Virus record (IMG/VR): IMGVR_UViG_3300046740_000391
Coordinates: 1-64,000 of that record
Reading direction: 5' to 3' (one strand)
DNA length: 64,000 bases
DNA from: a virus
Positions 17,560 through 63,775 of the stretch are shown here, piece by piece. Numbering within the stretch: position 1 is the first letter of the stretch; each line of letters opens with the position of its first letter. Under the pieces are notes generated by a model. The model did not search any database. It was not told the origin of the DNA and worked only from the letters and a program-made list of their open reading frames with translations. Both the position numbers and the translations under genes were made by a program.

Positions 17560-17897
17560 ACGAAGAGTTCTACGAGGAAACCGTCACGCTTCGCGGCACC
17601 ACCTACCGCTTCAGGGAGCTGACCGGTGCCCAGTACGAGGACTTCGTCAAGATCTGCGAGGGCCCGGATGGGACCTCAGACCTGGGTGCCGTGCTGAAGC
17701 TGATGATCCCAGCGTCGATGCTGGAGCCCAAGCTGACGGCGGACCAGATCATGGCCAAGCCACTGCCCATCTACAACGCCCTCGCCGGGGTCGTGAACCG
17801 GATGCACTTTCGCACCGAGCCGGTCGAAGGGGAGCCGGAGGCTACTGAGGGCGGTGAGACGAAACCGGGAAACGACTCCGAGCCGCAGACCTCCTAG
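17535..17897 (+). CDS. Tail assembly chaperone, short form
   Basis: 120 residues, GTG start. Counterpart of lambda gpG: EEFYEETVTLRGTTYRFRELTGAQYEDFVKI.., then LKLMIPASMLEPKLT, and an acidic low-complexity C-terminus (EGEPEATEGGETKPGNDSEPQTS). It binds the tape measure during tail assembly. It sits just before the tape measure gene and contains a slippery site near its 3' end that gives the longer form. Confidence 0.85.
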   Translation: MPARKTALNEEFYEETVTLRGTTYRFRELTGAQYEDFVKICEGPDGTSDLGAVLKLMIPASMLEPKLTADQIMAKPLPIYNALAGVVNRMHFRTEPVEGEPEATEGGETKPGNDSEPQTS

Positions 17898-40524: not shown

Positions 40525-42558
40525 TCACGCCAACGAGCAGTTGACGAAGGTCACGCCCGGAGGGTTCGCGCCCATGGCGCTGTAGAACCCGCCCGAGTTG
40601 GTTGACACGATGTCCTTGAACACGATGTTGCTCGCGCCGACGGACTCGAAGCGGATGGCGAGACCGTTGGCGTTGGTGATCGTGGCGCCGTCAAACAGCC
40701 AGTCATGGACGGGCGGCACCCACAGGATGATCGCCTGCTGAACGGTCGGCTCTCCTCTTCCCCGGTTGCCGACGTACTTGAGGCGTCGGATGGTGACGTT
40801 GTAGGCGTTGACGAGGCCGTTGTCGGCGTGATCCATGTGGACGGCCGAGGCGAGGCCCATGGCCGCTGACGCATCCACGTCGAGGTCCTCGATCAGGATG
40901 TCGTGGCAGCCGCCGCGAGAATGGCTGAAGTAGGCGGCGTGCTCGGTGCTGTGGTCGATCGACGCTCGGAGGACAGACGACAGGACCTTCGGCTTGCGGA
41001 TGGTGATGTGGTGCACGCCCGGCTCGTCCCAGCCGCCGAAGTCGATCACGCCCGCCTGCGTCATCGTCGCGTTGGCGAACGTGATCCCGCCCTGGAAGTC
41101 GAGGTCGTGCGCGCCGCCGTGGATGCTGAGACCGACTCCGTTCAGCTGGCCGTTGCCGGTGTTCACCACGCCATCGGTGTGGATGACGCCCGGAACGGTG
41201 CGAGCGGCGAACCTGGAGTCGATGTTGATCCTGCCCGAGTACGTGCCCGGGGCAAGCGTGATGTCCGGCGCGTTGTTGGCGAGCGCGGTGTACAGGTCGG
41301 CGATCGTCGTGACCGTCACGGTCGTCGCGGGCGGTGCCTGCTTCGCGCCAGCATCAGTGCCATCGGATGCTGCGCCTCGTCCCGTCTGTCCGGCGGCGAG
41401 GAAGTAGTTGGTGTCGAACGTCTGGCTGAAGAAGTTGTGGTCGGCCGTCGTGCTCGCCGCGTTGTACGGGTCGTAGATCGAAACGGCGCCCGTGTTCGGC
41501 CCGCTGAATGCGTTGTCGCGGACGAGCGCGGTCGAGTGGTGCCGGAGGTCAACTGCCGAGCCGTTGCCCTTGAAGGTGTTGTGCAGCACCTGAATGGTGA
41601 TGACCGGCGTCGTCGCGCCATCCCACGTCTGGAGCGCGATGGCCCAGCCGTCGAAGATGCACCGCTGCACGACCACGTTGAGCGGGGCGGGCTGACTGTA
41701 GATGTCGATGCAGTTGGCGGTGTTGGGACCAACGAAGGTGCAGTTCTCGATCGTCACCCCGTCCGCGCCGTGGATGATGCCGATGCTGTGATCGACGAGC
41801 GGGCTCCCGGCGACGAGGCCCATCGCGCAGTTGCGGATGGTGACGTGCTTGGTGAGGTAGCCCGTCGTGTCGAAGCCACCGATGACGAAGTTGGCCGCAT
41901 CGGGTGCAGCTGCCGCGGGCACGTTGATGCCGTCGATGATGACGTAGTCCGTCCCGACCCTGTGTGTCGTGTCGTTCGGCCCGAGCGAGATGATCGGCCC
42001 CGTCGCGCCGGTGATGTTCACCGTCTCGCTCTGGTAGTTGCGGATCGTGATGGGCTTCGAGGCTGTTCCGATCAGGCTCGGCCAGGTGTCTCGGGCGTTG
42101 CGGAAGCCCGGGTTCCGGTCGTTGACGTAGGGGTAGTTGCCGCCCCGGACGTACAGGGTCGCCCCGGCCGCGGGCGCGCTCTCGACGAACTTCTGCATCG
42201 TGGCCCACGGCTTGCCGATCGTGCCATCACCCGTCGTGTCGCTGCCGTTGGTCGCCATGTAGTAATCGACTGTGGTCGGCGGCGGCGGGACTGGAACGGC
42301 CACGACAACGGTCGCGCTGGCGACGATGACCGTGGTGCCGTTGTAGCGCGCCGTCACGGTCTGGGTCTTCGGCGTCGCGGAGCAGATCATCCCCCAGTGG
42401 AATGTCCCGTCGTTCGCTGAGCGGGCCACGTTCGTCGTCCACCCCACGCCGTCGAGGGCGAGTTGGACCTTCTTACGTGGATCGAACCCACTGCCGTCGA
42501 TACGGATATTCGTCCCCGGCGCGGCCGGGTTGGGCGTGATGACGAGTTTCGCGGTCAT
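40525..42558 (-). CDS. Large beta-helix protein inside the recombination block
   Basis: 677 residues; ATG 42558 has GGGAGAACC just upstream, and the extra frame before it is not coding-like. Residues about 1-95 are an Ig-like domain (LVITPNPAAPGTNIRIDGSGFDPRKKVQLALDG). Then many parallel beta-helix turns (KHVTIRNCAMGLV.., VTIENCTFVGPNTANCIDIYS.., VVVQRCIFDGWAIAL.., HDILIEDLDVDASAAMGL..) run to the C-terminus. Such proteins are normally virion tail spikes or polysaccharide lyases. Here it sits between ERF and nuclease genes in the early operon, which is unusual. It could be a cell-surface acting or spike protein made early. Confidence 0.78.
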   Translation of the reverse strand: MTAKLVITPNPAAPGTNIRIDGSGFDPRKKVQLALDGVGWTTNVARSANDGTFHWGMICSATPKTQTVTARYNGTTVIVASATVVVAVPVPPPPTTVDYYMATNGSDTTGDGTIGKPWATMQKFVESAPAAGATLYVRGGNYPYVNDRNPGFRNARDTWPSLIGTASKPITIRNYQSETVNITGATGPIISLGPNDTTHRVGTDYVIIDGINVPAAAAPDAANFVIGGFDTTGYLTKHVTIRNCAMGLVAGSPLVDHSIGIIHGADGVTIENCTFVGPNTANCIDIYSQPAPLNVVVQRCIFDGWAIALQTWDGATTPVITIQVLHNTFKGNGSAVDLRHHSTALVRDNAFSGPNTGAVSIYDPYNAASTTADHNFFSQTFDTNYFLAAGQTGRGAASDGTDAGAKQAPPATTVTVTTIADLYTALANNAPDITLAPGTYSGRINIDSRFAARTVPGVIHTDGVVNTGNGQLNGVGLSIHGGAHDLDFQGGITFANATMTQAGVIDFGGWDEPGVHHITIRKPKVLSSVLRASIDHSTEHAAYFSHSRGGCHDILIEDLDVDASAAMGLASAVHMDHADNGLVNAYNVTIRRLKYVGNRGRGEPTVQQAIILWVPPVHDWLFDGATITNANGLAIRFESVGASNIVFKDIVSTNSGGFYSAMGANPPGVTFVNCSLA

Positions 42559-43565: not shown

Positions 43566-43841
43566 TTATGCCAACGACGAACGATGCGTGCGTCGCACTG
43601 AAACGGCATCGCGCCCGCGCGCGCGGCCGGTCCTGTGCGCGTCGTCAATCGCGCGAACCAGCCGCGCGTGCCGACGCGCGCCGATGTTGTACACGACCTT
43701 CGTGCTGAAGGTCGAGGTGGGGTTGTTAGCCACGAGCGTGAGCAGCGTGGCGGTGTTGCGTGCACAGCGAGCGTGCGCGCAATCCTCGCAGGTGGCGTCG
43801 AGCAGCAACCTGATCTCGTCGATCAGTTGTCGCTGGCTCAT
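43566..43841 (-). CDS. Small Cys-rich basic protein, 91 aa
   Basis: ATG 43841 has GCAGGAAG just before it; ATG 43862 would add 7 residues with no ribosome site, following the TCCACCCATAT word. Sequence has CEDCAHARC (Cys-His cluster) and a very basic C-terminus (RTGRARGRDAVSVRRTHRSS). Possibly a nucleic-acid binding zinc protein. No family recognised. Confidence 0.55.
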   Translation of the reverse strand: MSQRQLIDEIRLLLDATCEDCAHARCARNTATLLTLVANNPTSTFSTKVVYNIGARRHARLVRAIDDAHRTGRARGRDAVSVRRTHRSSLA

Positions 43842-43947
43842 GGCTTCCTGCGGGCGTCTCATATGGGTGGAGTTTACCACGAACGCATTGTTGATCTGGA
43901 GGGTGGATGATGCGACCATCTCAGTGACCGCCTATACAGGGGACTGC

Positions 43948-48680: not shown

Positions 48681-49253
48681 TCAGTTGCTGAAGTGGATTG
48701 GGCAGTACGATCCGGGCGAGTGGTAGATGTCCCCGGTCGACCGGTTGAGCATCCCGTTGCAGAGCTGTGATTCTGCTTCCTGCTCGGCCTCGATTTCGCT
48801 GGCGTTCTCACGAGCCTCGTCCTCATTGGCTCGCTGTTCGTTGATCCATTCGAGCTGGGCTTCGAGGATCGTCTTCCCGCTCCAGGGACTCCTCTCCTCG
48901 CTGGGATAGTCGATCAGGTTGATCACGGCCGCCATGACATCGACCATGAACATGTAGTCGTCGACCTGTTCGGTGGTCTCGCAGTCGAGTACCTCGGAGT
49001 AGTTCTCCTGGATGGGTGTGAGGTCGTTGTCGATGTCGAGCCGCTCGAACTTCCCGCCGATGGTGCCGATGCGGTCACCATCGTTGTCCACGATTTCGTA
49101 CGACTGACCGGGCTTGATCAGGCTCTCGACGCGGCGATTGACGCGGACGATGCGTTCTGCATGGGCCGTTGGGACGATGCTGATTGTCGAAGTTGTGCTG
49201 TTGTTGAAGTTCATGGCCGACAGGTCGACCGTGAAACCGTTGGTGGTGTCCAA
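48681..49253 (-). CDS. Acidic hypothetical protein, 190 aa, TTG start
   Basis: First gene after the terminator at 49305-49329. TTG 49253 has a strong GGAGG 9 bases upstream; ATG 49214 is the next choice. Beta-rich first half (GQSYEIVDNDGDRIGTIGGKFERLDIDND) and an acidic helical second half (ILEAQLEWINEQRANEDEARENASEIEAEQEAESQ), ending with CPIHFSN. CNG, C and H near the end might bind zinc. Function unknown. It starts a transcription unit behind the conserved 22-base element. Confidence 0.68.
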   Translation of the reverse strand: MDTTNGFTVDLSAMNFNNSTTSTISIVPTAHAERIVRVNRRVESLIKPGQSYEIVDNDGDRIGTIGGKFERLDIDNDLTPIQENYSEVLDCETTEQVDDYMFMVDVMAAVINLIDYPSEERSPWSGKTILEAQLEWINEQRANEDEARENASEIEAEQEAESQLCNGMLNRSTGDIYHSPGSYCPIHFSN

Positions 49254-49281
49254 CGAACGATGCCTCCATTTGTGTTGCGTT

Positions 49282-49304
49282 GTGCAACGCGATCAAGCGG
49301 CAAA
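49282..49304 (-). promoter_or_regulatory. Conserved TTGCCGCTT-N4-GCGTTGCAC element, copy 1
   Basis: On the minus strand TTGCCGCTT, GATC, GCGTTGCAC, starting at the base after the terminator stem and 28 bases before the TTG start of the 190-aa gene. On the plus strand it ends in a perfect palindrome GCGTTG-TG-CAACGC (49277-49290). Followed by GCATCGTTCG at the start codon. Likely a phage promoter or regulator site; see copies at 52293 and 55718. Confidence 0.6.
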
Positions 49305-49329
49305 CGCCGCGCGGTTTGGCCGCGCGGCG
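49305..49329 (-). terminator. Terminator after JAMM gene
   Basis: Perfect 10-base-pair stem CGCCGCGCGG/CCGCGCGGCG with a TTTGG loop, 17 bases after the 49347 stop. GC-only stem without T-run on the minus strand except TTTG; likely strong intrinsic termination or a transcript barrier. Confidence 0.7.
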
Positions 49330-49346
49330 CTCCCGCTCAGTCGGTG

Positions 49347-50312
49347 CTAGGCGTCCAGACCGTCGAAGTTGAAGTCCGCGAGATCAGCGAGGATCCCGGC
49401 CGACAACTCCGGCAGCGTGGTGTCCGCCGTGGTCGTGTCCGCCACGGGCGGCTGGAAGCCCAGCGCCTTCGGCTTCACCGCGGGGCGGTGAGCCTGCACG
49501 CTGCCGATGGTCACGGGGCCGTTGGCCGCGTAGTCGGCCTGGAGCTGCTCCATGAAGTTCGACGGCGCCTCCTGCTTGGCCACGTCCAGTGCCATCTGGA
49601 GAGGCATCAGCTTCTGCATCCCGAACATGAGCATCTCGAACGGGTCGTCGCTGTTGCCCCCGGCCACGAACTCTTCGAGCGCGGTGGCCAGGTTGTCCAT
49701 CGCCTCCACCAGCGGGTGGACGTAGCCGAGGACGCGGGCGTAGCTCTCGGCGTAGATCCGAGCGGTGACCGCGTCGTACTTGGGACTGACGCCGTTGACG
49801 TCGTCCGACTGCATCGCGATGATCCCAGCCTTCTGGGTCACGATGAACGACTGGAACTTGCGCGGCGCACCGAGGTGCGCTTCGTGCTGGAAGTCCGCCA
49901 TGTTGATCACGCGGACCTTGTGGTTGTCGTTGTCGCTGGGCTGGCCCATGCCCTCGGGATGGATGTGGAACCAGGTCCACCGCTCCATGCCCTCGATGCT
50001 GTGGGCCCAGGCCGCGATCTCCTTGGTCCACTCGGGGAACTCGACGGCGTCGCCCGAGCCGAAGATCTGGACCGGCTCGTCGTCGACGCTGACGCGGAGG
50101 ACCATGTAGCCCACCACGATGTCGTTGAGGTCGGTGCAGACCGCGATGTCTGCCTCGGCCCACTCGCCCTTCTCGCCCAGCGGCTCGATGGTGCGCTCGT
50201 AGAGCAGCTTGAGGAACTCGCGCATCGCGACGATGTGCACCTTGACCTCTTCGGCGGTCGGCTCCTCGTCGGGCTGGACTGCGGGAAGCTTGTATCCGAT
50301 CAACTCGCCCAT
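49347..50312 (-). CDS. JAMM/JAB-domain metallopeptidase-like protein
   Basis: 321 residues. A perfect JAMM zinc motif at about residue 117: HIHPEGMGQPSDND (HxHx7SxxD), within WTWFHIHP. Upstream strands MVLRVSVDDEPVQIFG and downstream LGAPRKFQSFIVTQKAGIIAMQ complete the JAB fold, and an acidic residue for catalysis is available in VEFPEWTKE. JAMM proteins cleave isopeptide bonds or amide links on ubiquitin-like or other proteins. The C-terminal about 140 residues are helical and Thr/Pro-rich. It ends the unit that begins with zinc proteins, next to a AAA+ ATPase unit. Confidence 0.78.
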   Translation of the reverse strand: MGELIGYKLPAVQPDEEPTAEEVKVHIVAMREFLKLLYERTIEPLGEKGEWAEADIAVCTDLNDIVVGYMVLRVSVDDEPVQIFGSGDAVEFPEWTKEIAAWAHSIEGMERWTWFHIHPEGMGQPSDNDNHKVRVINMADFQHEAHLGAPRKFQSFIVTQKAGIIAMQSDDVNGVSPKYDAVTARIYAESYARVLGYVHPLVEAMDNLATALEEFVAGGNSDDPFEMLMFGMQKLMPLQMALDVAKQEAPSNFMEQLQADYAANGPVTIGSVQAHRPAVKPKALGFQPPVADTTTADTTLPELSAGILADLADFNFDGLDA

Positions 50313-50335
50313 CAGTGGGTTTCCCTTTCTCCGCT

Positions 50336-50794
50336 TTACCAGCGGAACTCGACGTCGTCGATGCTGACGACGCCCGACTCCTTGTTGAACTCGGCTGTCG
50401 GCCCGATGGGCGCAGCCTCTTCGACCACCTTGGTCTTGGCCATCCCAACGGGACGGACCACGAACGTGCCTTCGACGACCACATCCATCAGGCAGTCAGG
50501 GCACAGATACTCCAGGTTGTACGGCATCTGCCCCGGGATGAGCGCGACACGATCGCGCCCTTCCTCGCAGTGGTAGCACTGCCAGGCGCCGCTGTCGTTG
50601 ACCGCGTCGAAGCCGGTGAACTTGTGGCCGTTGTAGTTGACGTCGAGTTCGCCGTTCTCGACTGCGCTGAACAGACAGTCGGGGCACAGATATTGCAGGC
50701 TCTGCGGCCAGCCGTTCTCACCCTGATAGATGCGAGCGACCGAGCCGTTGCTGCCGTTGCAGTAGTGGCAGATGAAGCCTCCTTGCTCGATCAC
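50336..50794 (-). CDS. Zinc protein with two repeated Cys4 units
   Basis: 152 residues from GTG 50794, which overlaps the previous stop as GTGA and has GGAGGTGA 7 bases upstream. Two paralogous zinc units: FICHYCNGSNG..LQYLCPDCLFSAVENGE (about 8-52) and WQCYHCEEGRDR..LEYLCPDCLMDVVVEG (about 70-110), each with two CxxC pairs. An acidic tail follows. Probably protein or nucleic-acid binding. Member of the unit with the cysteine-rich and JAMM genes. Confidence 0.75.
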   Translation of the reverse strand: MIEQGGFICHYCNGSNGSVARIYQGENGWPQSLQYLCPDCLFSAVENGELDVNYNGHKFTGFDAVNDSGAWQCYHCEEGRDRVALIPGQMPYNLEYLCPDCLMDVVVEGTFVVRPVGMAKTKVVEEAAPIGPTAEFNKESGVVSIDDVEFRW

Positions 50795-51354
50795 GACCAG
50801 CTCACCTCCATTCCTTCGATGTTGTAGCTGTTGCCGTCCTCGGAGAAGACGGTGTCTGGGATGTTCAGCTTCGTGCTGTCGAAGCACACACGGCACACGA
50901 CGCCTTCGCCGTTATCGCCGTCGCACTCCTCACACCTGCGGCAGGTACCGCACAACGAGCCAGAGATCCCGTCGCCGCAGTCGCTGCATCGAGTGTTGGC
51001 GTGATCCGAGCACCACTCCGCGGTGCTGTAGCACTCGTTGCACTCGTTGCTGTGAGACTCCTCGCACGCACCGCAGCTGCTGCAGTAAACGTCCTCGTCG
51101 TCGTCGCCACAGGACGAGCACCCGTGTGCTCGGTCGCAATCGGTGCAGCTTTGGCAGTACAGGTCGTGCCCTGTCTCACCGCAGCCATTGCATTGCTCAC
51201 CCGCGGAGCGGGAGTCGTAGACGCCATTACTGACGCGCTTGAACAAACAGGCCGAGCACATCCACTTGGGTTCGCCTTCGAAGGCGACCATCTGCTCGCC
51301 GGTCTTGTTGCAGTAGCCGCAGATGCCGCTACCGCTCAGTGATGTCATGACCAT
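50791..51354 (-). CDS. Cysteine-rich multi-zinc protein, 25 Cys in 187 residues
   Basis: ATG 51354 has GGAGAGGTG before it and overlaps the upstream stop by one base. Eleven CxxC-like clusters run in series: CGYC, CSAC, CNGC, CQSCTDC, CSSC, CSSCGAC, CNEC, CSDC, CGTCRRCEEC, CRVC, plus single WCSD. His residues are rare (HDLYC, AHGC, SHSNEC, SDHAN), so most sites would be Cys4. Gly/Asp/Glu-rich between. This looks like a chain of zinc ribbons or a metal-binding scaffold, similar in style to RING-like or DnaJ zinc repeats but not assignable. Adjacent to the JAMM gene. Confidence 0.78.
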   Translation of the reverse strand: MVMTSLSGSGICGYCNKTGEQMVAFEGEPKWMCSACLFKRVSNGVYDSRSAGEQCNGCGETGHDLYCQSCTDCDRAHGCSSCGDDDEDVYCSSCGACEESHSNECNECYSTAEWCSDHANTRCSDCGDGISGSLCGTCRRCEECDGDNGEGVVCRVCFDSTKLNIPDTVFSEDGNSYNIEGMEVSWS

Positions 51355-51593
51355 CAGTGCACCTCTCCGTTGTCGTACGGATCGGGGTACTGACCACGTC
51401 GGCCGGTCCACATCCGACGAGCGGACTGGATCTTGCGGACGCGATGTTGGTCGAGGGAGCGATCACGGACTCGCTTCCTGACGATTTTGACTGCCTGGTC
51501 ACGGTTGTCTGCAGGCAGATCGAACGTGAATGGGATCAGGCCCGGGCGCCCGTCCGTGACGAGCACCCGGACCCGGTAGAGCTGTTCGCTCAT
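51354..51593 (-). CDS. Small basic hypothetical protein, 79 aa
   Basis: Sequence SEQLYRVRVLVTDGRPGLIPFTFDLPADNRDQAVKIVRKRVRDRS with a beta-start and Lys/Arg-rich helix, then a polar end (PDPYDNGEVH). A small alpha/beta fold. It does not end in a di-Gly, so it is not an evident ubiquitin-like tag. Coupled to the cysteine-rich gene. Confidence 0.63.
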   Translation of the reverse strand: MSEQLYRVRVLVTDGRPGLIPFTFDLPADNRDQAVKIVRKRVRDRSLDQHRVRKIQSARRMWTGRRGQYPDPYDNGEVH

Positions 51594-51596
51594 GGC

Positions 51597-52133
51597 TCAG
51601 TCGTGGATGACCGTTGCCGGGAGGACCAGCGCGAGGTAGGACCCGTCGATGGGAACGATCCGAATGCCTTGGCTGACAATCGGCTCGCCGAACGGCTCTC
51701 CGACGCCAGCAACGGCGGGCTCGGACGCCGACTGCACGGCCGAGGCATACGCCTCGGCGTACAGCTCGCCCGTTTCGACCACCCCGGCGGCATAGCCACG
51801 CCGCCACGCATCGCCTTCCGGCGAAGCGTCGAACTCCTGCTCCAGCTCGACGAGGTCGGGCCGTCCGACGAGTTCGGCGATGTCCGAACCGCTGAAGCCG
51901 TTGGCTCGCAGCTGTCGGTACGCCTGGCGATCGTCGAGGATGATCACCGCCTCGTCGGCGGCCTCATCCAGCGTGGACGCAGCCACGGTGTAGGTGTCGC
52001 CGGTGACGCGCTCGGTGAACGTGATGACGACCTCTTCGCTGTGATCCGCTTCGAGATCTAGCTCGATGTCGTCGATGTCGGCTCGCTCGAAGAGGCTTTC
52101 GAGTCGAGACTTCTCAGCAATCTGTTCCACCAT
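51597..52133 (-). CDS. Acidic hypothetical protein, 178 aa
   Basis: ATG 52133 with AAGGAG ribosome site. Strongly acidic, with an alpha/beta pattern (EVVITFTERVTGDTYTVAASTLDEAADEAVIILDD, then helical AYRQLRANGFSGSDIAELVG which resembles a helix-turn-helix), and a C-terminal strand pair IRIVPIDGSYLALVLPATV. Function unknown. Confidence 0.67.
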   Translation of the reverse strand: MVEQIAEKSRLESLFERADIDDIELDLEADHSEEVVITFTERVTGDTYTVAASTLDEAADEAVIILDDRQAYRQLRANGFSGSDIAELVGRPDLVELEQEFDASPEGDAWRRGYAAGVVETGELYAEAYASAVQSASEPAVAGVGEPFGEPIVSQGIRIVPIDGSYLALVLPATVIHD

Positions 52134-52246
52134 CGGTGTGGCTCCTTATGGTTGTATTTGGACAACGGATTGAACGTGTGCCAACCGTCGATTGACACTG
52201 GGTGGACATACCCGCAGAACCAACAGAAGTGGGATCCACGGGCCAT
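52058..52246 (-). CDS. Small Cys/His protein at the start of a unit, 62 aa
   Basis: ATG 52246, 47 bases after the conserved element, is preferred to ATG 52288 which touches it. Contains SHFCWFCGYVHPVSIDGWHTFNPLSKYNHKEPHRWW: CxxC with several His, a potential zinc site, then a Ser-rich end over the next gene (76-base overlap). A weak but plausible gene. Confidence 0.42.
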   Translation of the reverse strand: MARGSHFCWFCGYVHPVSIDGWHTFNPLSKYNHKEPHRWWNRLLRSLDSKASSSEPTSTTSS

Positions 52247-52292
52247 CCACCAATGACGTTTCACGAACGAACGAATGCGTGTACGCATTTTT

Positions 52293-52314
52293 GTGCAACG
52301 CAACTAAGCGGCAA
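52293..52314 (-). promoter_or_regulatory. Conserved TTGCCGCTT-N4-GCGTTGCAC element, copy 2
   Basis: Minus strand reads TTGCCGCTT, AGTT, GCGTTGCAC, starting 2 bases after the terminator stem at 52317-52360. A GCATTCGTTCG box follows 14 bases on. Same order and spacing as copies 1 and 3. Confidence 0.6.
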
Positions 52315-52316
52315 TC

Positions 52317-52360
52317 GGGGCCGCGCGGTGGGCATGGGTAGCCCATGACCGCGCGGCCCC
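52317..52360 (-). terminator. Terminator after AAA+ ATPase gene
   Basis: Perfect 13-base-pair stem (GGGGCCGCGCGGT with ACCGCGCGGCCCC), enclosing an inner GGGC/GCCC stem. It starts 10 bases after the ATPase stop. One of five such leftward terminators between 49305 and 56800. Confidence 0.75.
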
Positions 52361-52370
52361 TGATGTGCGG

Positions 52371-53912
52371 CTAGGAGACGGTGGGAGCCGACTCGGGGTT
52401 GGCGCCATCGGAGACCGCGAAGAACGCCGGGGTGGTTCCCTCGGCCGAGTGGATGTCGACGATGTGGCGAGCCGGGAGCGGCAGGCTCACGGCCACGCCC
52501 TTCTCGATCGCCTCGCGGCCGACGGTCGCGATGATCTCCGCTGCCTTGACGGTCTCGGACCGCTTGTCCTCCTCGGCCGGAGTCAGCAGCCGAACGTGCT
52601 CGGCCATCTCCTCCGCTGCGAACACCAGCGCGGCATCGTCGACGAACAGCTCGTCGTCGTTGTCGTGCAAGCGGATCGCCGCCAGCTTGGACCGCTCGAC
52701 CACCTCCCGGATCACGGCCGGGATGGTGCCCGCGAGCAGCTTCTTGCTCTCGGTGAGCGGCTCGCTCGCCGGGATCAGGCCACGACCGTACTGCCGAGCG
52801 AGGCGCTCGGCCGCATCCGCATCCGGCGGACCGACGTGGATGATCGCGTCGAGGCGACCGGGCCGCAGCATCGCGGCGGTGATGTTCTCCAGCTCGTTGG
52901 TGGTCAGCACGATCATCATCGAGCTGCCCTTGGACTCGACGCCGTCGACCACGTTCAGCACCTGGTCGATGCCGACGCTGCGATCGTCGCCGCGCATGAT
53001 CCGGTCGATGTCCTCGCAGAACAGGACGACGCCAGCCTCACGGGTGCCGTACATCCTGATCAGCTTGGCCACCTCGGCCAGCTCGAAGATCTGCTCGACC
53101 TCGACGTAGGTCCAGCCGTTGGCGACGGCCGTCTCCGCTGTGGCGCGAGCGATCATGGTCTTGCCGGTGCCGAACGGACCGGCGAGCAGGATGCCGCGCT
53201 TGAGCGGAATCCCGTGCCGGACGACGCGAGCCGTCTGCTCGATCGGCGTGAAGATGTTGGTGCGGACCGAGGCGTCGGTCTTCTCGGGCAACACCAGCTC
53301 CGGCAGGATGCTGACCGAGAGGTCGATGAACTTGGGCTCCGGCATCTCCAGCCGGACGCCGCGATCGTCGAAGAGCCGGACGCGGAACGCCTTGCCCTTG
53401 TAGATGGACTTGGTGTGGACGCGCTGCTTGACGGCCTCGACAAGGCCGTTGACGGCCTTCTCGTACATCCGCTTGACCTTGCCGCTGATGACGAACCGGC
53501 TCACGCCGAGGTCGTCCTGCTCGATCCCGGACTGGAGGTAGCCCTCGATGTTGGGCAGCGCGAACCTGCCCCACGGAACCTGGACGGTCTCGTTGGGTCC
53601 GACCGGCACCGACAGCATCTGCGGCGGCGTGGCGCCGAAGAAGCCCGGCGTCGGGACGCCGTTGGCCCAGCCGAACTGCTCGGTGAGCACCTCGTACAAG
53701 GCGTACGCCGACTCGAACGGGAACGCGGCGTCGATCGGCGCGTGGATGCCGACCTCCTGGTTCTCGAACTCCATCCGGGCGTGGATGACCGCGTCGACAC
53801 GCGGGAGGTCCATGCCCTCGGGGATGATCAGCGCGTCGCCGTGACGCTTGACCTCCACGACGTCACGGATGGACTTGGACTTGTCGCCAGCGGCCTGATT
53901 CAGGGTTGCCAT
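52371..53912 (-). CDS. AAA+ ATPase of the FtsH/Cdc48/ARC class
   Basis: 513 residues. N-terminal about 1-230 unique domain, including FIDLSVSILPELVLPEKTD. AAA+ module: Walker A AGPFGTGKT at about 244-252, Walker B VVLFCEDIDRI at about 294-304, sensor-1 MMIVLTTNELENI and the arginine-finger/box VII LRPGRLD at about 335. C-terminal lid helices continue to 440. The sequence PLKRGILLAGPFGTGKT and LRPGRLD place it with Cdc48/FtsH/proteasomal ATPases, not with helicases or MoxR. It could unfold or remodel proteins. It occupies its own long unit near JAMM and zinc proteins. Confidence 0.85.
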   Translation of the reverse strand: MATLNQAAGDKSKSIRDVVEVKRHGDALIIPEGMDLPRVDAVIHARMEFENQEVGIHAPIDAAFPFESAYALYEVLTEQFGWANGVPTPGFFGATPPQMLSVPVGPNETVQVPWGRFALPNIEGYLQSGIEQDDLGVSRFVISGKVKRMYEKAVNGLVEAVKQRVHTKSIYKGKAFRVRLFDDRGVRLEMPEPKFIDLSVSILPELVLPEKTDASVRTNIFTPIEQTARVVRHGIPLKRGILLAGPFGTGKTMIARATAETAVANGWTYVEVEQIFELAEVAKLIRMYGTREAGVVLFCEDIDRIMRGDDRSVGIDQVLNVVDGVESKGSSMMIVLTTNELENITAAMLRPGRLDAIIHVGPPDADAAERLARQYGRGLIPASEPLTESKKLLAGTIPAVIREVVERSKLAAIRLHDNDDELFVDDAALVFAAEEMAEHVRLLTPAEEDKRSETVKAAEIIATVGREAIEKGVAVSLPLPARHIVDIHSAEGTTPAFFAVSDGANPESAPTVS

Positions 53913-53913
53913 G

Positions 53914-54423
53914 TCAGTTGGACTCCTTGTTGCGGGAGGTGAGGATCAGCATGGAGGTGAACACCAGAGCGGCGAACACCAAGAGCAGCGAGTTGCTCGA
54001 TGGACTCTCCTGTGCGGCTGGCTGAACGGTGTCAGTCGGCGGATTGGTGATGTGTTCGTGAGGCGGCGTGCTCGGCACGGAGTGTGTCGAGGGAACGCAG
54101 GTAACGCACGGTGTCGGCGTCGGCACGCCGTGGCTCGCGCCACAGTCGGGACACGGTGTCGGCGATGTCGACGGCACGGGCGATGTCGGTTGCGACGGCG
54201 TATCCGTGGGTGTGCTCGTGGGGATGTTGCTGGGCACGTCGCTGGGGCTTGTGGTGGACGTGGCCGTGGCTGTGGGTTCCTCGGAGGGAACCGAGTCGGT
54301 GTGTGTGGCGGTGGGCGTGGCGGAATCGCCCTCGGGATGGCTTGCCATCGTCGGCTGCACCGAAAGCAGCAGCAAGATCGTCAGCCCCAAGAGAGCCGTG
54401 ATCGTGGATTTCCATGTCCTCAT
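53914..54423 (-). CDS. Phage-encoded mucin-like surface protein with signal peptide and TM anchor
   Basis: 169 residues from ATG 54423 (GGAGG site). Signal peptide: RTWKSTITALLGLTILLLLSV then QPTMASH cleavage-like site. Then Thr/Ser/Pro-rich stalk (about 35-135; PTATATSTTSPSDVPSNIPT) with CPDC and CVTC pairs, and a C-terminal hydrophobic helix SLLLVFAALVFTSMLILT followed by RNKESN. Orientation: outside stalk, membrane anchor, short charged inner tail. A cell-surface protein put on the host, perhaps blocking superinfection or altering the cell wall. Lies directly upstream of the ATPase gene (one-base gap). Confidence 0.75.
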   Translation of the reverse strand: MRTWKSTITALLGLTILLLLSVQPTMASHPEGDSATPTATHTDSVPSEEPTATATSTTSPSDVPSNIPTSTPTDTPSQPTSPVPSTSPTPCPDCGASHGVPTPTPCVTCVPSTHSVPSTPPHEHITNPPTDTVQPAAQESPSSNSLLLVFAALVFTSMLILTSRNKESN

Positions 54424-54495
54424 TCCTGTGAGGCCTCCATAGCAGGTTGTTGCATGGCCAACGAGACTCGATGGCATCTCCTGTGGGATGGGTGA

Positions 54496-54774
54496 TCACG
54501 CCTCGGTGAAGTAGTAGTCGCCGAGCCTCGGAGCCTTGCCCTCGATGTCGAACGCGACAATGGCCTTGCGAACCGCCTCCGAGGACTCCAGCGTGAAGAT
54601 CTGCGCTCGCTCGTCGTCGTGGGTGTCGAAGATCAGCGCGTTGGCCACAATCAGCGACACGCTGGCGTGAAACCGTCGAGCCAGGGCCAGTGCGAACGGA
54701 CAACGGAACGGACTGAATGGGACGCCGTGGTCGATGTCCTCTTGGGTGAGGGTGACGCGGTATCGCTTGTTCAT
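54496..54774 (-). CDS. Hypothetical protein, 92 aa
   Basis: ATG 54774 overlaps the upstream stop as ATGA. Sequence NKRYRVTLTQEDIDHGVPFSPFRCPFALALARRF then SLIVANALIFDTHDDERAQIFTLESSEAVRKAIVAFDIEG looks like a compact alpha/beta fold. No known family. Confidence 0.65.
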   Translation of the reverse strand: MNKRYRVTLTQEDIDHGVPFSPFRCPFALALARRFHASVSLIVANALIFDTHDDERAQIFTLESSEAVRKAIVAFDIEGKAPRLGDYYFTEA

Positions 54775-54938
54775 GATCGATGCCACCGTGCTGCAGCGTG
54801 TCGAGCACGCATCCGATGTGCCTGGGTGAAGACGAGGCGATCGTCCTCGCGGCGATCGAGCCAATTGCGGAGTGGAACGGTTGCGACCACCGCCGCGATG
54901 AAGCCGACGATGGTGATGACGCCCAGCAGGTCAGCCAT
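54771..54938 (-). CDS. Small membrane protein, 55 aa
   Basis: ATG 54938. One membrane helix MADLLGVITIVGFIAAVVATV, then a very basic tail (RREDDRLVFTQAHRMRARHAAARWHRS). Typical of early phage membrane proteins that bind host factors, but unassigned. Overlaps both neighbours slightly (8 and 4 bases). Confidence 0.6.
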   Translation of the reverse strand: MADLLGVITIVGFIAAVVATVPLRNWLDRREDDRLVFTQAHRMRARHAAARWHRS

Positions 54939-55200
54939 CGGTCGGCTCACCAACCGATGCCTCAGCCGGGATGGCACGAGGCTGAGGGAATGTTCGCTTG
55001 ACGACGCCAAGCTCGACCAGCACGGCCAGGCCAACCAGCCGCTGGATCTGATCGGCCGTGAACTGCTGGCCGCGCCGCAGCATCTTGTTCCGAGCCGTCA
55101 GATCGTCCTCAGCGGCGACCCAGCGATCCGGTTCGTTCAGCGCCAACGCCTCTGCGTTCTTCGCTGTGATCCGGTACTTGGGAAACATCGACGGGAGCAT
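54931..55200 (-). CDS. Hypothetical protein, 89 aa
   Basis: Sequence SMFPKYRITAKNAEALALNEPDRWVAAEDDLTARNKMLRRGQQFTADQIQRLVGLAVLVELGVVKR, helical with Ala/Leu; resembles small helical DNA-binding or packaging helpers. It follows the 158-aa gene without gap. Function unknown. Confidence 0.63.
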   Translation of the reverse strand: MLPSMFPKYRITAKNAEALALNEPDRWVAAEDDLTARNKMLRRGQQFTADQIQRLVGLAVLVELGVVKRTFPQPRAIPAEASVGEPTDG

Positions 55201-55677
55201 TCAGTCGCTCTCCTTCCTGCGCCTGGCACGGCGCGGCTTGGGGACCTCGGCGTCCGAGATGGTGATGCTGGGACTGAGTGCGGCGACGAGCGCGCAGTCG
55301 TCGGCGTGCGTCTCTTCGCTGTCCACGAAGTGGTTGCAGAACGGGCACGACGGCCGACCGTTGTACATCGGCTGATAGCCGTTGCGCAGCAGGTCTTCCA
55401 ACTCCTCCCGCAGAACGTCGATGACGCTGAGCGTCTCGCGCTCGTAGGTGATGTTGGAGCGGTCAATCTCCAACTCGACGTTGTACGAGTTCAGCTCGTA
55501 CTGCAGATCGACGAGTTCCTGTCGCAGCAGCCACAGGTCCTCGGCTTCGATGCGGAACAGGATCCGCTCCAACCCAGGAACGGCCCTGCCGATCCCGCGC
55601 AACGTCTCTTCGACGGATCGTGCTGTGCCCAGCGTCATCGTGTCGTCGAGCACGATGGCGCCGCTGTAGATGACCAT
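55201..55677 (-). CDS. Coiled-coil protein with zinc site, 158 aa
   Basis: ATG 55677 with AAAGGAGGG site; the six residues of extra frame before it are unlikely. Long helical region (ERILFRIEAEDLWLLRQELVDLQYELNSYNVELEIDRSNITYERETLSVIDVLREELEDLLR), then RPSCPFCNHFVDSEETHADDC (Cys, Cys, His, His, Cys) giving a possible zinc site, then a basic end. First gene of the 55677-52371 unit, behind the third conserved element. Confidence 0.66.
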   Translation of the reverse strand: MVIYSGAIVLDDTMTLGTARSVEETLRGIGRAVPGLERILFRIEAEDLWLLRQELVDLQYELNSYNVELEIDRSNITYERETLSVIDVLREELEDLLRNGYQPMYNGRPSCPFCNHFVDSEETHADDCALVAALSPSITISDAEVPKPRRARRRKESD

Positions 55678-55717
55678 CAGTGGCCCTCCTTTCAAACGAT
55701 GCGTTTGTGGCGTTTAC

Positions 55718-55740
55718 GTGCGACGCACACAAGCGGCAAA
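55718..55740 (-). promoter_or_regulatory. Conserved TTGCCGCTT-N4-GCGTCGCAC element, copy 3
   Basis: Minus strand reads TTGCCGCTT, GTGT, GCGTCGCAC, starting at the base after the terminator stem at 55741-55787. A GCATCGTTTG box follows 15 bases on and the ATG 41 bases on. The plus strand GTGCGACGCAC word is seen again, in the other orientation, at 43588-43598. Confidence 0.6.
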
Positions 55741-55787
55741 CCGAGACCCGCGAAGAACCCATGGGGGGTCCTAGACGCGGGTCTCGG
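55741..55787 (-). terminator. Terminator after small membrane gene
   Basis: Perfect 12-base-pair stem CCGAGACCCGCG/CGCGGGTCTCGG with a 23-base loop, 8 bases after the 55796 stop on the minus strand. Confidence 0.7.
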
Positions 55788-55795
55788 TTGCGGGA

Positions 55796-55981
55796 TTAGT
55801 ACGTGGACAGTGCGATGATCGTGACCACCAGCGCGATCCACGCGAAGAACAAGCACAGCGCGGAGAAGAACACGCGCTGCACCCACACCAACCATCCCTC
55901 GGGGACGAACAGCGTGGCCAGGCTTGCGCCCAGCATCGTTGCGATGCTCATCGTGAGCATGAACATGAACGGGTTGTCCAT
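55796..55981 (-). CDS. Two-helix membrane protein, 61 aa
   Basis: ATG 55981 overlaps the previous stop as ATGA. Two membrane helices (MFMLTMSIATMLGASLATLFV and VFFSALCLFFAWIALVVTIIAL) with a Trp-containing link. Size and topology resemble superinfection-exclusion or holin-like membrane proteins. Early gene of unknown role. Confidence 0.66.
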   Translation of the reverse strand: MDNPFMFMLTMSIATMLGASLATLFVPEGWLVWVQRVFFSALCLFFAWIALVVTIIALSTY

Positions 55982-56250
55982 CACGCCGACCGCATGAAGC
56001 GATCGCCATAGCCGAACCCGAGGCGAGTCTCGATCGTGGCAATCGAGAGCCGATCGCCGATCTCGATCGCCTTGTCCAGCAGCTTGACCAGCCACATGAT
56101 CTCCGCGCTGAGCGGCGCTGTTGCAGCTGCCTGCTCAGCACGGGTGGGGTCCAGATGGGGTCGGAACACCGGGATGCCCTCAGGCGTGGTGGTCCACTGG
56201 CCGACACCGGCATCGCCCTGTGCCTCATCGGTGTATCCGTACATCGCCAT
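55981..56250 (-). CDS. Hypothetical protein, 89 aa
   Basis: ATG 56250 with an AGGAGG site 6 bases upstream. N-terminal YGYTDEAQGDAGVGQWTTTPEGIPVFRPHLDPTRAE, then helices IMWLVKLLDKAIEIGDRLSIATIETRLGFG. Not recognised. First gene of a short unit between terminators. Confidence 0.65.
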   Translation of the reverse strand: MAMYGYTDEAQGDAGVGQWTTTPEGIPVFRPHLDPTRAEQAAATAPLSAEIMWLVKLLDKAIEIGDRLSIATIETRLGFGYGDRFMRSA

Positions 56251-56326
56251 AGCGAACCTCCTGTATGGGTGACGTGTGTGAGCCGAGCAACGAACGTTGC
56301 TCATGCAACACACCCTCAACGCAAAC

Positions 56327-56376
56327 GAGCGCTGCTGGGTGAACACCAACGTGATGATGTCCACCCAGGAGCGCTC
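56327..56376 (-). terminator. Terminator after 70-aa gene
   Basis: Fifteen-base-pair inverted repeat with one mismatch (GAGCGCTGCTGGGTG against CACCCAGGAGCGCTC), 20-base loop, 39 bases after the 56416 stop on the minus strand. AACGAACGTT lies further on (56288), as a variant of the box near other unit starts. Confidence 0.65.
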
Positions 56377-56415
56377 GTAGCAGCTCCTGTATTCAGTTAG
56401 GACTGGCCGCTAGGA

Positions 56416-56628
56416 CTACCGCGAACGGCGGAACCGACGGGACCGCATCGGCCCATCGGAAGACTTCCGGTTCGGCGACGAGGTGCGGTACTCATCACCC
56501 GTGGACGCTTCTGCGGGCTCACTCACGATGCGACCCGCGCCGCTAGCGTCAGCGGTCAGGTCGACAGCGTGACGCTCCCGCATCAGTCGATCGATAGCGT
56601 GAACATCGTCGTAGAGACGAGACGACAT
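56416..56628 (-). CDS. Small basic hypothetical protein, 70 aa
   Basis: Begins SSRLYDDVHAIDRLMRERHAVDLTADASGAG and ends PMRSRRFRRSR with an Arg-rich tail. No clear ribosome site close to ATG 56628 (GAGG is 13 bases off). Probably a small early DNA- or RNA-binding protein. Lies between terminators 56767-56800 and 56327-56376, so is its own unit. Confidence 0.5.
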   Translation of the reverse strand: MSSRLYDDVHAIDRLMRERHAVDLTADASGAGRIVSEPAEASTGDEYRTSSPNRKSSDGPMRSRRFRRSR

Positions 56629-56766
56629 GGTGGAACGATGACCTCATGCACGATGGGGACGATGTGCGACGAGCGCAGCAACGCGACGGTGCGTGACCGT
56701 GGGGTCAAACACCGCCGCGTTGTAACGCACGATCGCACGAACGATCAGCGCGTTTGCCAGTACGGT

Positions 56767-56800
56767 GCGACCCCGGAACCCTTGCGGATTCCGGGGTCGC
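56767..56800 (-). terminator. Terminator after first leftward gene
   Basis: Twelve-base-pair stem GCGACCCCGGAA/TTCCGGGGTCGC with a 10-base loop, immediately after the stop of the 121-aa gene. The following region has a GCGTTGTAACGC palindrome and a CACGAACGAT box like those at other unit starts. Confidence 0.68.
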
Positions 56801-56805
56801 GCGGC

Positions 56806-57171
56806 CTAGCGGATCGTGCCGGTGCACCCCGCCTTGTCCAGCGTGGCGCAAGGCTCGCCGGACTTGCGGGGCGTCGCGAAACCGTGCGCGGCACCGTGCA
56901 CCGTTTCCCCGCCATGCGACCAATCGGCGTCGACCGTGCACGAGTAGCCGGGGACCGCGAAGATCGCAGCGGCCTTGCGCGTGTCCTGCATGGACAGCCC
57001 CTGTAGCACGGCGGGACGCCCGTCGACGGCAACACCGGCGACGCTCACGCGAGCCGATGCCGCGAACGGGGACGCAACCGGCGCAGCGGCCGGTGCACTG
57101 GTGGGAGTCTCGCCGGACTTGAGCGCGGCGACGACAGCGGCGACGATTGCCGCGAGATCCTGATCGGCCAT
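56806..57171 (-). CDS. First leftward early protein, 121 aa
   Basis: ATG 57171 with GGGAGGC site; about 160 bases of leader separate it from the divergent promoter. Begins ADQDLAAIVAAVVAALKSGETPTSAPAAAPVASPF (amphipathic helix plus Ala/Pro linker), then a beta/Cys-containing domain (VSVAGVAVDGRPAVLQGLSMQDTRKAAAIFAVPGYSCTVDADW.., ATLDKAGCTGTI). No family known. As first gene of the early run it may be made in large amounts early in infection. Confidence 0.65.
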   Translation of the reverse strand: MADQDLAAIVAAVVAALKSGETPTSAPAAAPVASPFAASARVSVAGVAVDGRPAVLQGLSMQDTRKAAAIFAVPGYSCTVDADWSHGGETVHGAAHGFATPRKSGEPCATLDKAGCTGTIR

Positions 57172-57317
57172 GGTAGGCCTCCCGTGGGAAAGGCCGCGTG
57201 CGCGCCTGTGTGGCGGGCATGGTTCGGCCTAGGGACACCTTCTCACCCCCCCCGGTCGGCGCGGCCAAACGCCCCTGAACGGCTTTCGAGTGGCGTGGGA
57301 AAAAACCGGGCGCACAC

Positions 57318-57346
57318 TTGACAACCTAGGTGCAAAGTAGTATGCT
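57318..57346 (+). promoter_or_regulatory. Rightward promoter
   Basis: Perfect -35 TTGACA (57318-57323), 17-base spacer, -10 TATGCT (57341-57346). It points to the rightward unit that begins at 57500. The -10 box lies inside the AGTAG-N4-CTACT palindrome and interlocks with the leftward promoter. Confidence 0.72.
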
Positions 57347-57349
57347 ACT
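57336..57349. promoter_or_regulatory. Palindromic operator site O1
   Basis: AGTAG-TATG-CTACT, centred on both -10 boxes. Twelve of its bases (GTAGTATGCTAC) reappear with one change in O2 at 57433-57444 (GTACTATGCTAC), about 96 bases downstream, the layout of a phage repressor-binding region. Candidate ligand: the ribbon-helix-helix protein at 58790 or a protein outside the window. Confidence 0.6.
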
Positions 57350-57365
57350 GACACTAAGCAGTCAA
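57337..57365 (-). promoter_or_regulatory. Leftward promoter overlapping the rightward one
   Basis: Minus strand: -35 TTGACT (57365-57360), 17-base spacer, -10 TACTAC (57342-57337). The two -10 boxes share bases 57341-57342, so RNA polymerase can probably occupy only one at a time. It would drive the 57171 gene. Confidence 0.6.
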
Positions 57366-57432
57366 GCTACTGCGAAATCGGCCCTGGACAAGCCGTTTGG
57401 CCCCAAATTGGACGAAATGGGCCATTTTCCTC

Positions 57433-57444
57433 GTACTATGCTAC
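57433..57444. promoter_or_regulatory. Palindromic operator site O2
   Basis: Centre of TCGTA-CTATGC-TACGA, 11 of 12 bases shared with O1. Lies in the leader of the rightward unit, 56 bases before ATG 57500. No convincing promoter of its own was found. Confidence 0.5.
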
Positions 57445-57499
57445 GAAATATTCGTGCTCATAAGGTGGAACGGGTGTCAGAAAACACGGGCCAGTACAA

Positions 57500-59002: not shown

Positions 59003-59103
59003 AGCGACGCGAGTCTGAACTAGTTCTGGAAGTCCTGATTGTGATTTCCGGACTGATCATCATCATGCTGGCGATCACATCGCCTGGAGGCACACTGAAG
59101 TGA
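58999..59103 (+). CDS. Tiny membrane peptide, 34 aa
   Basis: ATG overlaps the previous stop as ATGA and its stop lies under the GTG start of the ParB-like gene. MKRRESELVLEVLIVISGLI start: basic head, then a single membrane helix (VLIVISGLIIIMLAITS). Too short for usual length cut-offs but neatly coupled. Confidence 0.6.
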   Translation: MKRRESELVLEVLIVISGLIIIMLAITSPGGTLK

Positions 59104-60056
59104 CCGAACAGAACTTGCAGCCCACCACGCACGCTGATGCGTCGGAGGATCTGCTCGTTGACCGCGCAATCAAGTTCGATACCAAGATCATCGCGTTCAA
59201 GGACATCGACCTCGAAGCGTCGGCACGCAATCAGGCGAGGTTCCTCGCCATCCACCCCGAGACGGTTGAGCTGTACACCGCCGCCATGAACGATGGGGCC
59301 GTGTTCCCCAGGATCGTGGTCTACGGATCCAAGCCGCCGTACTCCGCCCTCGATGGCAACCACCGCATTCGGTCGGCCATTGCCGTCGGTTTCACCGCTG
59401 CCGAGATGATCGTCGTCTCCAGCGCCACCCAAGCACAGCGCGAGCTGTTCACCTACGAGGCAAACGCGAAGCATGGACTGCCGACATCTCTCGAAGAGCG
59501 CATCGCCCAGGGCGTCTACTTGGTCGGTCTTGGCAACCAGGCCGTCGACGTGGCGTCTGCGCTCGGAGTTCCTGAGCGCAAACTGTGGGGCGCAGTGGCC
59601 GCAAAGCGTTCACGTCAGCGACTGGAACGACTCGGCGCGAAAATCAGCACGCGGTGGGGCGATGACACGTTCCGTCGTCTCGCGTCCATTCGCTCAGACA
59701 CGGTCGTCGTTCCGTTTGCCAAGCTGATCACGTCCGCTGGTCTCTCGAATACGGAGGTCAGCGCGCTGATCGTCCAGGTCAACGCCTTCACCACTGAGGG
59801 CTCCCAGTTGGCCTTCATCGAACAGCGGGCAGCTCAGCTCGCGCCCATCATCCGAAGCACCGCCGGTGGCGCGGTGAACCTCCCCAAGGAGGTCACCACG
59901 CTGCGCCTGGGTCTGCGGATGTTCAAGAACATGGAGCCAGACAGGCTGGCTGCCGCTGTGGCCACGATTGACCCCGGGCTGCGCGACTCGCTGGGTCGGG
60001 AGACTCTTGAGTCGGTCAGCGTTCTGATCAATCTGGCGGGTGTGTTCAAGAAGTGA
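59100..60056 (+). CDS. ParB-like domain protein 1, 318 aa
   Basis: GTG start in GTGA. ParB/sulfiredoxin-like N-terminal domain with IAFKDIDLEASARNQAR, FPRIVVYGSKPPYSALDGNHRIRSAIAVG (the DGxHRxxA nucleotide-binding box at about 85) and helix-turn-helix-like EERIAQGVYLVGLGNQAVDVASALGVPERKL. The C-terminal part is helical. Phage ParB-like proteins use CTP or act as nucleases or DNA-binding regulators. Position near the packaging genes is common. A second ParB-like protein lies at 63134. Confidence 0.82.
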   Translation: MTEQNLQPTTHADASEDLLVDRAIKFDTKIIAFKDIDLEASARNQARFLAIHPETVELYTAAMNDGAVFPRIVVYGSKPPYSALDGNHRIRSAIAVGFTAAEMIVVSSATQAQRELFTYEANAKHGLPTSLEERIAQGVYLVGLGNQAVDVASALGVPERKLWGAVAAKRSRQRLERLGAKISTRWGDDTFRRLASIRSDTVVVPFAKLITSAGLSNTEVSALIVQVNAFTTEGSQLAFIEQRAAQLAPIIRSTAGGAVNLPKEVTTLRLGLRMFKNMEPDRLAAAVATIDPGLRDSLGRETLESVSVLINLAGVFKK

Positions 60057-62774: not shown

Positions 62775-63137
62775 GTGAAGCACACCACAACGGTGACCGT
62801 GCCGTTCGAGGCCGGACATCAAATCGACTATCTCGATGGTTGCAAGTGGACGGGCCATGGGCATCGTTGGACGGTCACGGTTACGGTTGGGGGCACCCTT
62901 GATGCCCAGAAGGTCTATGTGGTGGACCACCACCGTCTACTGGCAGCCGTCCGAGAAGTTGTCGACGAACTCCGAGATCACAACCTCAACGACATGCTCC
63001 CCGGAGTCCGGCCCACCCCCGAGGGTCTCGCCATCTACTTCCACGAGCGGCTCGCCCTGGGGGTCCCCCGGATCGTAGCCGTCGAAGTTGGCATGGGCGA
63101 CGAGATCAAGACGAGGGTCGAATGGGATCTGCGGTGA
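62775..63137 (+). CDS. QueD/6-pyruvoyl tetrahydropterin synthase-like enzyme
   Basis: 120 residues, GTG start after CCGGAGGGATCG. Zinc-binding histidines: His15 in VPFEAGHQID, His28 and His30 in GHGHRW. A nearby Cys23 (DGCKWTGHGH) is the likely catalytic Cys. Later VVDHHRLLAAVREVVDELRDHNLNDML..PTPEGLAIYFHERL matches the (V)xDxxxL..DHxxLN..PTxExLA order of the family. QueD makes carboxy-tetrahydropterin, the second step in 7-deazaguanine biosynthesis, used by many phages for DNA modification. Other pathway genes (queC, queE, folE, transglycosylase) were not found here and may lie outside. Confidence 0.8.
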   Translation: MKHTTTVTVPFEAGHQIDYLDGCKWTGHGHRWTVTVTVGGTLDAQKVYVVDHHRLLAAVREVVDELRDHNLNDMLPGVRPTPEGLAIYFHERLALGVPRIVAVEVGMGDEIKTRVEWDLR

Positions 63138-63775
63138 AGCCGGAGTTCCTGTGGGTCCGCACGGCAGATGTCGAGCCCAACAGCTGGAACCCCAACGAGA
63201 TGGACGACGACCAGTACCAGAAGGCCGTCACCTCCATCAGGGATTTCGGCTTCGTGGTCCCGATCGTGGTGCGTCCGTATCCGGGGGGTGAGGACAAGTA
63301 CCAGATCATCGACGGCGAGAACCGCTGGCGAGCGGCTATCGACGAAGGCCTGGACGAGGTCCCGGTCAGCCTGACGGCCTTCGACGACTCGGACAGCCAG
63401 CAGCTGACGATCATCCTCAACGAGGTCCACGGGCAGCCCAACCCGCAGAAGCTGGGCATGTTGCTGCGGCAGCTCTCGGCCATCGAGACCAAGGACACCT
63501 TGCTTTCGCGGCTTCCATTCTCCCGTGAAGCTCTGGACCGTTTGACGGGGTTGTCCACCCTGGATCTGGACCAGCTCACGCCGCTCCCCAGGCCGCAGGG
63601 TGGTGCGCGCCCTGCGGCCTGGGTTGAGCGAACCTACCGGATGCCCAAGGAGGCAGCCGAGGTTATTGACGGAGCGCTGGCCGCGTGGCGGGGGGAAGAG
63701 GGTGGGGAGACGCCGGACTGGAAGATCCTCGAATACATCTGTGCCGACTGGCTCGCGTCGAATCGATTGTCCTGA
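63134..63775 (+). CDS. ParB-like domain protein 2, 213 aa
   Basis: GTG 63134 in GTGA; ATG 63122 (GAGGG before it) is an alternative with 4 more residues. ParB N-terminal pattern: PEFLWVRTADVEPNSWNPN, FGFVVPIVVRPYPGGEDKYQIIDGENRWRAAIDEG (DGENRWRAA box at about 60), then SDSQQLTIILNEVHGQPNP. The C-terminal part has KEAAEVIDGALAAWR helix. Probably a DNA-binding or nuclease-like ParB of phage type. Next to the packaging genes. Confidence 0.85.
   Translation: MKPEFLWVRTADVEPNSWNPNEMDDDQYQKAVTSIRDFGFVVPIVVRPYPGGEDKYQIIDGENRWRAAIDEGLDEVPVSLTAFDDSDSQQLTIILNEVHGQPNPQKLGMLLRQLSAIETKDTLLSRLPFSREALDRLTGLSTLDLDQLTPLPRPQGGARPAAWVERTYRMPKEAAEVIDGALAAWRGEEGGETPDWKILEYICADWLASNRLS

Follow-up and report, generated by a model that had tools for sequence, protein, structure and literature searches.

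What is the short sequence that recurs between genes in the leftward early region of this uncultured phage, and could it act there as a transcription signal? The window analysed here covers bases 1-64,000 of the 68,639-base record IMGVR_UViG_3300046740_000391, a phage that we refer to as G000. Rightward structural genes fill approximately the first 35 kb, terminase and portal genes occupy the far end, and a leftward region running from about 57.2 to 35.5 kb carries SSB, Erf, exonuclease and RadC-type genes together with an AAA ATPase. Genes were called with a simple codon-usage caller, which was wrong in at least two places, and a Pfam search of this phage identified 24 families. Neither the isolate phages nor the GTDB genomes searched for prophages contained anything close to G000.

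Anatomy of the cassettes

The recurring word, TTGCCGCTT-N4-GCGTYGCAC, is 22 bases long and occurs in three exact copies on the minus strand, as had been predicted; one additional minus-strand copy has three mismatches (Table 1). The exact copies are joined to a hairpin with 1, 2 and 0 bases in between for cassettes a, b and c, and a second box, GCAT(T)CGTT, follows 18, 14 and 15 bases downstream. Both spacings agree with the original prediction of 0-2 and 14-18 bases. In the fourth copy the second box follows after 0 bases. Such a box lies within 30 bases of 0.27% of random positions and 4.3% of gap positions. Up to three mismatches allowed, 0.19 matches to the word were expected in G000 (shuffle mean) and none of 100 shuffles reached four, which bears out the earlier claim that the copies are not accidental. 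Since the motif was defined after the G000 copies had been seen, the fair test lies in other genomes.

In a PWM scan, the cassettes ranked as the best three sites both in G000 and in its nearest relative, G001, with scores of 25-30 against noise that begins at about 12-15. Next in G000 were the fourth copy, with a score of 21, and at 55707 an inverted, overlapping partner with 19. With leave-one-out matrices, all six G000 and G001 cassettes remained in the top three sites of their own genome. The word is 82-86% identical between copies whereas the 25 bases on each side are only 24-48% identical, which indicates that the word itself is selected.

Table 1. Coordinates of cassette parts and associated features in the window.
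Feature	Position	Strand	Sequence or remark
Cassette a, hairpin	49305-49329	-	stem 10, loop 5; after gene 49347-50312
Cassette a, element	49282-49303	-	TTGCCGCTTGATCGCGTTGCAC; right half runs into dyad GCGTTGCACAACGC
Cassette a, second box	49256-49263	-	GCATCGTT; between Shine-Dalgarno and TTG start of gene 48681-49253
Cassette b, hairpin	52317-52360	-	after AAA ATPase gene 52371-53912
Cassette b, element	52293-52314	-	TTGCCGCTTAGTTGCGTTGCAC
Cassette b, second box	52270-52278	-	GCATTCGTT
Small CxxC-containing gene	52058-52288	-	directly follows cassette b; without Shine-Dalgarno
Cassette c, hairpin	55739-55789	-	after gene 55796-55981
Cassette c, element	55718-55739	-	TTGCCGCTTGTGTGCGTCGCAC; holds perfect dyad GTGCGTCGCAC
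Cassette c, second box	55695-55702	-	GCATCGTT
Fourth element	43588-43609	-	ATGCCGTTTCAGTGCGACGCAC; PWM 21.2 against noise of about 12-15; overlaps 3' end of ORF 43566-43919
Fourth element, second box	43580-43587	-	
Unit d, hairpin	56325-56378	-	strongest fold, z -7.65
Unit d, degenerate element	56303-56324	-	TTGCGTTGAGGGTGTGTTGCAT, then GAGCAACGTTCGTTGCTC; by eye, under scan threshold
Unit e, degenerate, hairpin	56679-56722	-	then TTGCTGCGCTCGTCGCAC, element-like but shortened; judged by eye
Unit f, hairpin	56767-56800	-	5 bases after first leftward gene 56806-57171; only box-2-like GATCGTTCGT follows
Sigma-70-type promoter, divergent control region	57318-57346	+	TTGACA-17-TATGCT
ParB/Spo0J/KorB-like DNA-binding protein	59100-60056	+	profile and fold search; candidate element binder

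The weaker copies that had also been proposed fared unevenly. The fourth copy stands well above noise but lies in the 3' end of an ORF and not in a clean gap; its placement in a divergent gap was rejected when homology revealed a minus-strand ORF there. This ORF, 43566-43919 (-), is probably a small gene, in which the motif STKVVYNIG is conserved and which has a homologue in the G001 gap 24654-24993. Near 56288 and 56729, box- or element-like sequence is indeed present, but it is degenerate. The degenerate units (56303-56324 and 56664-56681) were judged by eye; an alignment of entire cassettes by MAFFT misplaced the degenerate ones and played no part in the counts. The long gap that holds them, 56251-56805, also contains a likely small gene at 56416-56628.

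The hairpins, which vary in sequence between copies, had been described as strong terminators. They are strong, but their tails (TTTGCC, GATTGCC, TGCCGC, TTGCGT and ACCGTA) contain no U-tract and no run of more than three T residues, and an intrinsic-terminator scan called none of them. By the usual definition, a GC-rich hairpin followed by a U-tract, they are strong hairpins that lack the tract, so a terminator role is something we infer for them. An Rfam search gave no match for the cassettes, and single folds of the element itself revealed no structure shared between copies.

The second box holds no fixed place relative to the gene that follows. It lies before the Shine-Dalgarno, between the Shine-Dalgarno and the start codon, or near the start of a gene that has no Shine-Dalgarno. 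In the three exact copies its distance to the element is similar (14-18 bases) while its place relative to the start varies, which implies that its spacing is set by the element rather than the start codon.

Cassettes in related phages

The AAA protein is common to G000 and two uncultured relatives, G001 and G002, at 66-70% identity, and a search for further early-region relatives returned these two alone. G001 is a 72,154 bp IMG/VR contig that is mostly syntenic with G000, and G002 (74,082 bp) is more distant. The pattern defined on G000 gave three matches in G001 with up to three mismatches, against 0.17 expected and a maximum of one in 30 shuffles. All three adjoin a strong hairpin, compared with 2% of random positions, and all three lie on the strand of the neighbouring early genes; two are in called gaps and one is beneath a weakly scored ORF call. 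The second box takes the form CTCGTCGTC there. Enrichment of the motif in related phages was one of the tests named in the original prediction. G001, a genome that had no part in defining the cassette, replicates it and supports the core claim of a regulatory cassette that recurs between genes with its order and spacing fixed. That the arrangement is a coincidence or a functionless recent duplication of a spacer is therefore extremely unlikely. The number of strong copies in G000 is small, just three to four, but the independent replication in G001 and the low chance expectation contradict coincidence, and the divergence around the word speaks against recent duplication.

G002 has a single weaker copy in the same setting, which ranked 18 in the leave-one-out scan and is below detection by scan alone. 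A G002 hairpin at 12751-12782 was considered as a cassette and rejected as coding. Many G002 gaps, for example 29367-29461 and 30017-30382, contain long irregular GGC/GCC-rich runs of TGGCnnGGC-like repeats. A PWM scan found no cassette in G004 (59.9 kb), a relative by its terminase, and exact-pattern scans of IMG/VR returned only unrelated chance matches outside this lineage.

The cassettes occupy different junctions in these phages. In G000, cassette b sits between the AAA gene and the small CxxC-containing gene, whereas in both G001 and G002 the CxxC homologue follows the AAA gene directly, with no cassette. Conversely, a G001 cassette at 33924 separates homologues of genes 51597-52133 and 51354-51593; in G000 these two genes lie 3 bases apart with no cassette between them. 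Cassettes therefore appear to have been gained, lost or moved.

A composite spacer and its alternatives

The reading that we favour, at about an even chance of being right, is that the cassette is a composite spacer. The hairpin would end or insulate the transcript of the preceding gene, and the fused 22-base element would act as a promoter-type signal for the following one, so that the cassettes would divide the early leftward region into individual transcription units. The fixed order of hairpin, element and gene, always on the coding strand, supports this reading. Immediately past GCAC the AT fraction increases from 0.20 to 0.54 (mean of seven copies), and a transcription start would be expected at or just beyond that point. 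The gene after cassette b has possible starts only 4 bases (ATG) or 28 bases (GTG) past the element, which, with the Shine-Dalgarno absent, fits a near-leaderless or short-leader transcript.

Recognition would have to bypass ordinary -35 and -10 boxes, and we assume that host RNA polymerase is either redirected by a phage protein or guided by a sigma factor of the host. None of the 13 cassette regions scanned contained a -35/-10 pair, in agreement with the earlier observation that no housekeeping -10 box is present; the pair is clear in both divergent control regions, which score 11. A reading in which TTGCCG serves as the -35, with its -10 about 17 bases further on, was rejected for want of a consistent hexamer, and a sigma-54 promoter was rejected by eye since the GG/GC spacing is absent. 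The GC-rich right half of the element and its lack of a -10-like box argue against a promoter, the missing U-tracts argue against the terminator part of the composite spacer, and the conserved second box is something that a simple promoter does not explain.

The family searches of G000 returned neither a phage sigma factor nor an RNA polymerase family, which also counts against the promoter. For RNA polymerase, the PF00940 search gave no match in G000, but it was a weak search in that the control genomes were silent too. The early region has no unassigned ORF large enough to encode such an enzyme, and no gene for a T7/N4-type polymerase was found.

Binding by a repressor is a serious rival to the composite spacer, if on balance a doubtful one, because dyads occur in some copies and a ParB/Spo0J/KorB-like protein is encoded at 59100-60056. 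A DNA-binding protein of the phage, perhaps this one, for which Noc, ParB and KorB are among the structural matches, would bind the dispersed elements and repress or silence the early units. KorB of plasmid RK2 acts in this manner at its operators. The palindrome predicted at the first copy is real: GCGTTGTGCAACGC at 49277-49290 is the best match to this dyad in the genome. Other dyads lie in or overlap the element, namely GTGCGNCGCAC at 43588 and 55718 and, in G001, two copies of GCGGCGCACAACGC, and those in or extending from the copies of cassettes a and c (GCGTTGCACAACGC and GTGCGTCGCAC) would suit an operator. However, the dyads are not alike between copies, the conserved word is asymmetric and found in a single orientation throughout, and both pattern and PWM scans found no match to it in the divergent control region 57172-57499. 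That region has its own palindromes, the repeated GTAGTATGCTAC and GTACTATGCTACG, which lie at the promoter and downstream of it and are possible operators. G000 has two ParB-like proteins, 59100-60056 and 63122-63775 (+), and the G001 homologue of the former is on the other arm (25410-26357, minus strand). The predicted structure of the 44996 product was of low confidence (pLDDT 59) and was set aside.

The original prediction had left promoter, operator and stoperator as options, and the last of these fits least. Stoperators of Cluster A mycobacteriophages are short asymmetric intergenic sites oriented with transcription, at which a bound repressor stops transcription of the prophage, and the element shares the asymmetry, the intergenic position and the single orientation. 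We nevertheless consider this very unlikely for G000, since the early control region, in which an operator counterpart would be expected, has no copy of the word, and the 24 Pfam families found include neither integrases nor repressors, though distant members could escape. Its strong copies, moreover, are always fused to a hairpin.

A role at the level of RNA is unlikely. In this reading the hairpin would serve in processing or stabilising the transcript, and the element would belong to a 5' leader controlling translation, in the manner proposed for start-associated sequences. Several copies do sit 2-28 bases upstream of a Shine-Dalgarno, and the folds are strong. Against this, the second box keeps a similar distance to the exact elements and varies in position relative to Shine-Dalgarno and start, and the lack of both a common element structure and an Rfam match offers no sign of a shared RNA fold.

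Comparison with known intergenic signals

The 22-base signal is new, and comparable spacers that combine a terminator with a promoter are already known in other phages. The closest functional analogue appears to be the PeSL of T4-type phages, whose promoters are early and of the host type. PeSLs are described in PMC4503421 (citing Arbiol 2010 and Comeau 2014) as stem-loops linked to an early promoter, in intergenic spacers that can move. The cassettes likewise join a stem-loop to a conserved word in early-region spacers, with promoter activity of the word putative here, and their position varies among related genomes, namely G000, G001 and G002. The G000 cassettes differ in that their 22-base word is unrelated, a second box lies downstream of it, and a sigma-70 box is absent. 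Because the host-type promoter is missing, we do not class them as PeSLs.

Other phages provide partial parallels. Cluster K mycobacteriophages have a short motif and an inverted repeat before some early genes, in one orientation: the SAS, a 13-bp GGGATAGGAGCCC located 3-9 bases from the start codon, on the ribosome-binding site, and the ESAS, 17-bp inverted repeats with a putative SigA-type promoter (PMC3203893, PMC11373665). The combination of a conserved word with an inverted repeat, in one orientation upstream of a subset of early genes, resembles the G000 cassettes. However, the SAS 13-mer is absent from the G000 cassette gaps, and the G000 hairpins differ between copies and have no SigA site. 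Microbacterium cluster EC phages have an 18-bp asymmetric motif in short intergenic regions, similarly oriented, and cluster EI phages also have repeats (PMC7302621). These share with G000 an asymmetric, similarly oriented word in short gaps, but the sequence is unlike the G000 word, no fused hairpin is described, and EC/EI phages carry a sigma factor gene (PMC7302621). The Cluster O palindrome is another repeated intergenic signal (PMC4351075). Across these actinobacterial phages the sequences differ from that of G000, and none is described as similarly fused to a hairpin. In the haloarchaeal virus HGTV-1, a motif with an inverted repeat precedes most ORFs of one arm, and its authors compare it with PeSLs (PMC3950731); the pairing of motif and repeat is alike, but the HGTV-1 motif is of the archaeal TATA-box type.

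A bolder proposal, and a doubtful one, is that this siphovirus-like lineage of uncultured soil or wetland phages uses a new type of compact, GC-rich 22-base promoter in movable, terminator-fused spacers, read by host RNA polymerase with a phage or host specificity factor. If confirmed, the T4-type organisation of terminator-promoter spacers would have a counterpart, built on a different word, in an unrelated uncultured lineage, which would suggest a general way for phages to insulate and shuffle early genes. The word would also provide a defined probe for a phage transcription factor.

Several other features of the genome were noted. The AAA ATPase 52371-53912 (-) belongs to a family that occurs in Schitoviridae (N4-like) phages, at about 44-48% identity, and the gene content of G000 is otherwise siphovirus-like. 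Two small overlapping ORFs at 17224-17897 (+) look like frameshifted tail-assembly chaperones; since they precede the 1867-aa ORF, that ORF more likely encodes a tape measure protein than a T7/N4-type RNA polymerase. Among the early genes, 40525-42558 (-) encodes a protein of 677 aa that has a beta-helix match in Pfam and a tail-protein match in PHROG. The product of 62775-63137 (+) is QueD/PTPS-like (6-carboxytetrahydropterin synthase family) and possibly belongs to a DNA modification pathway.
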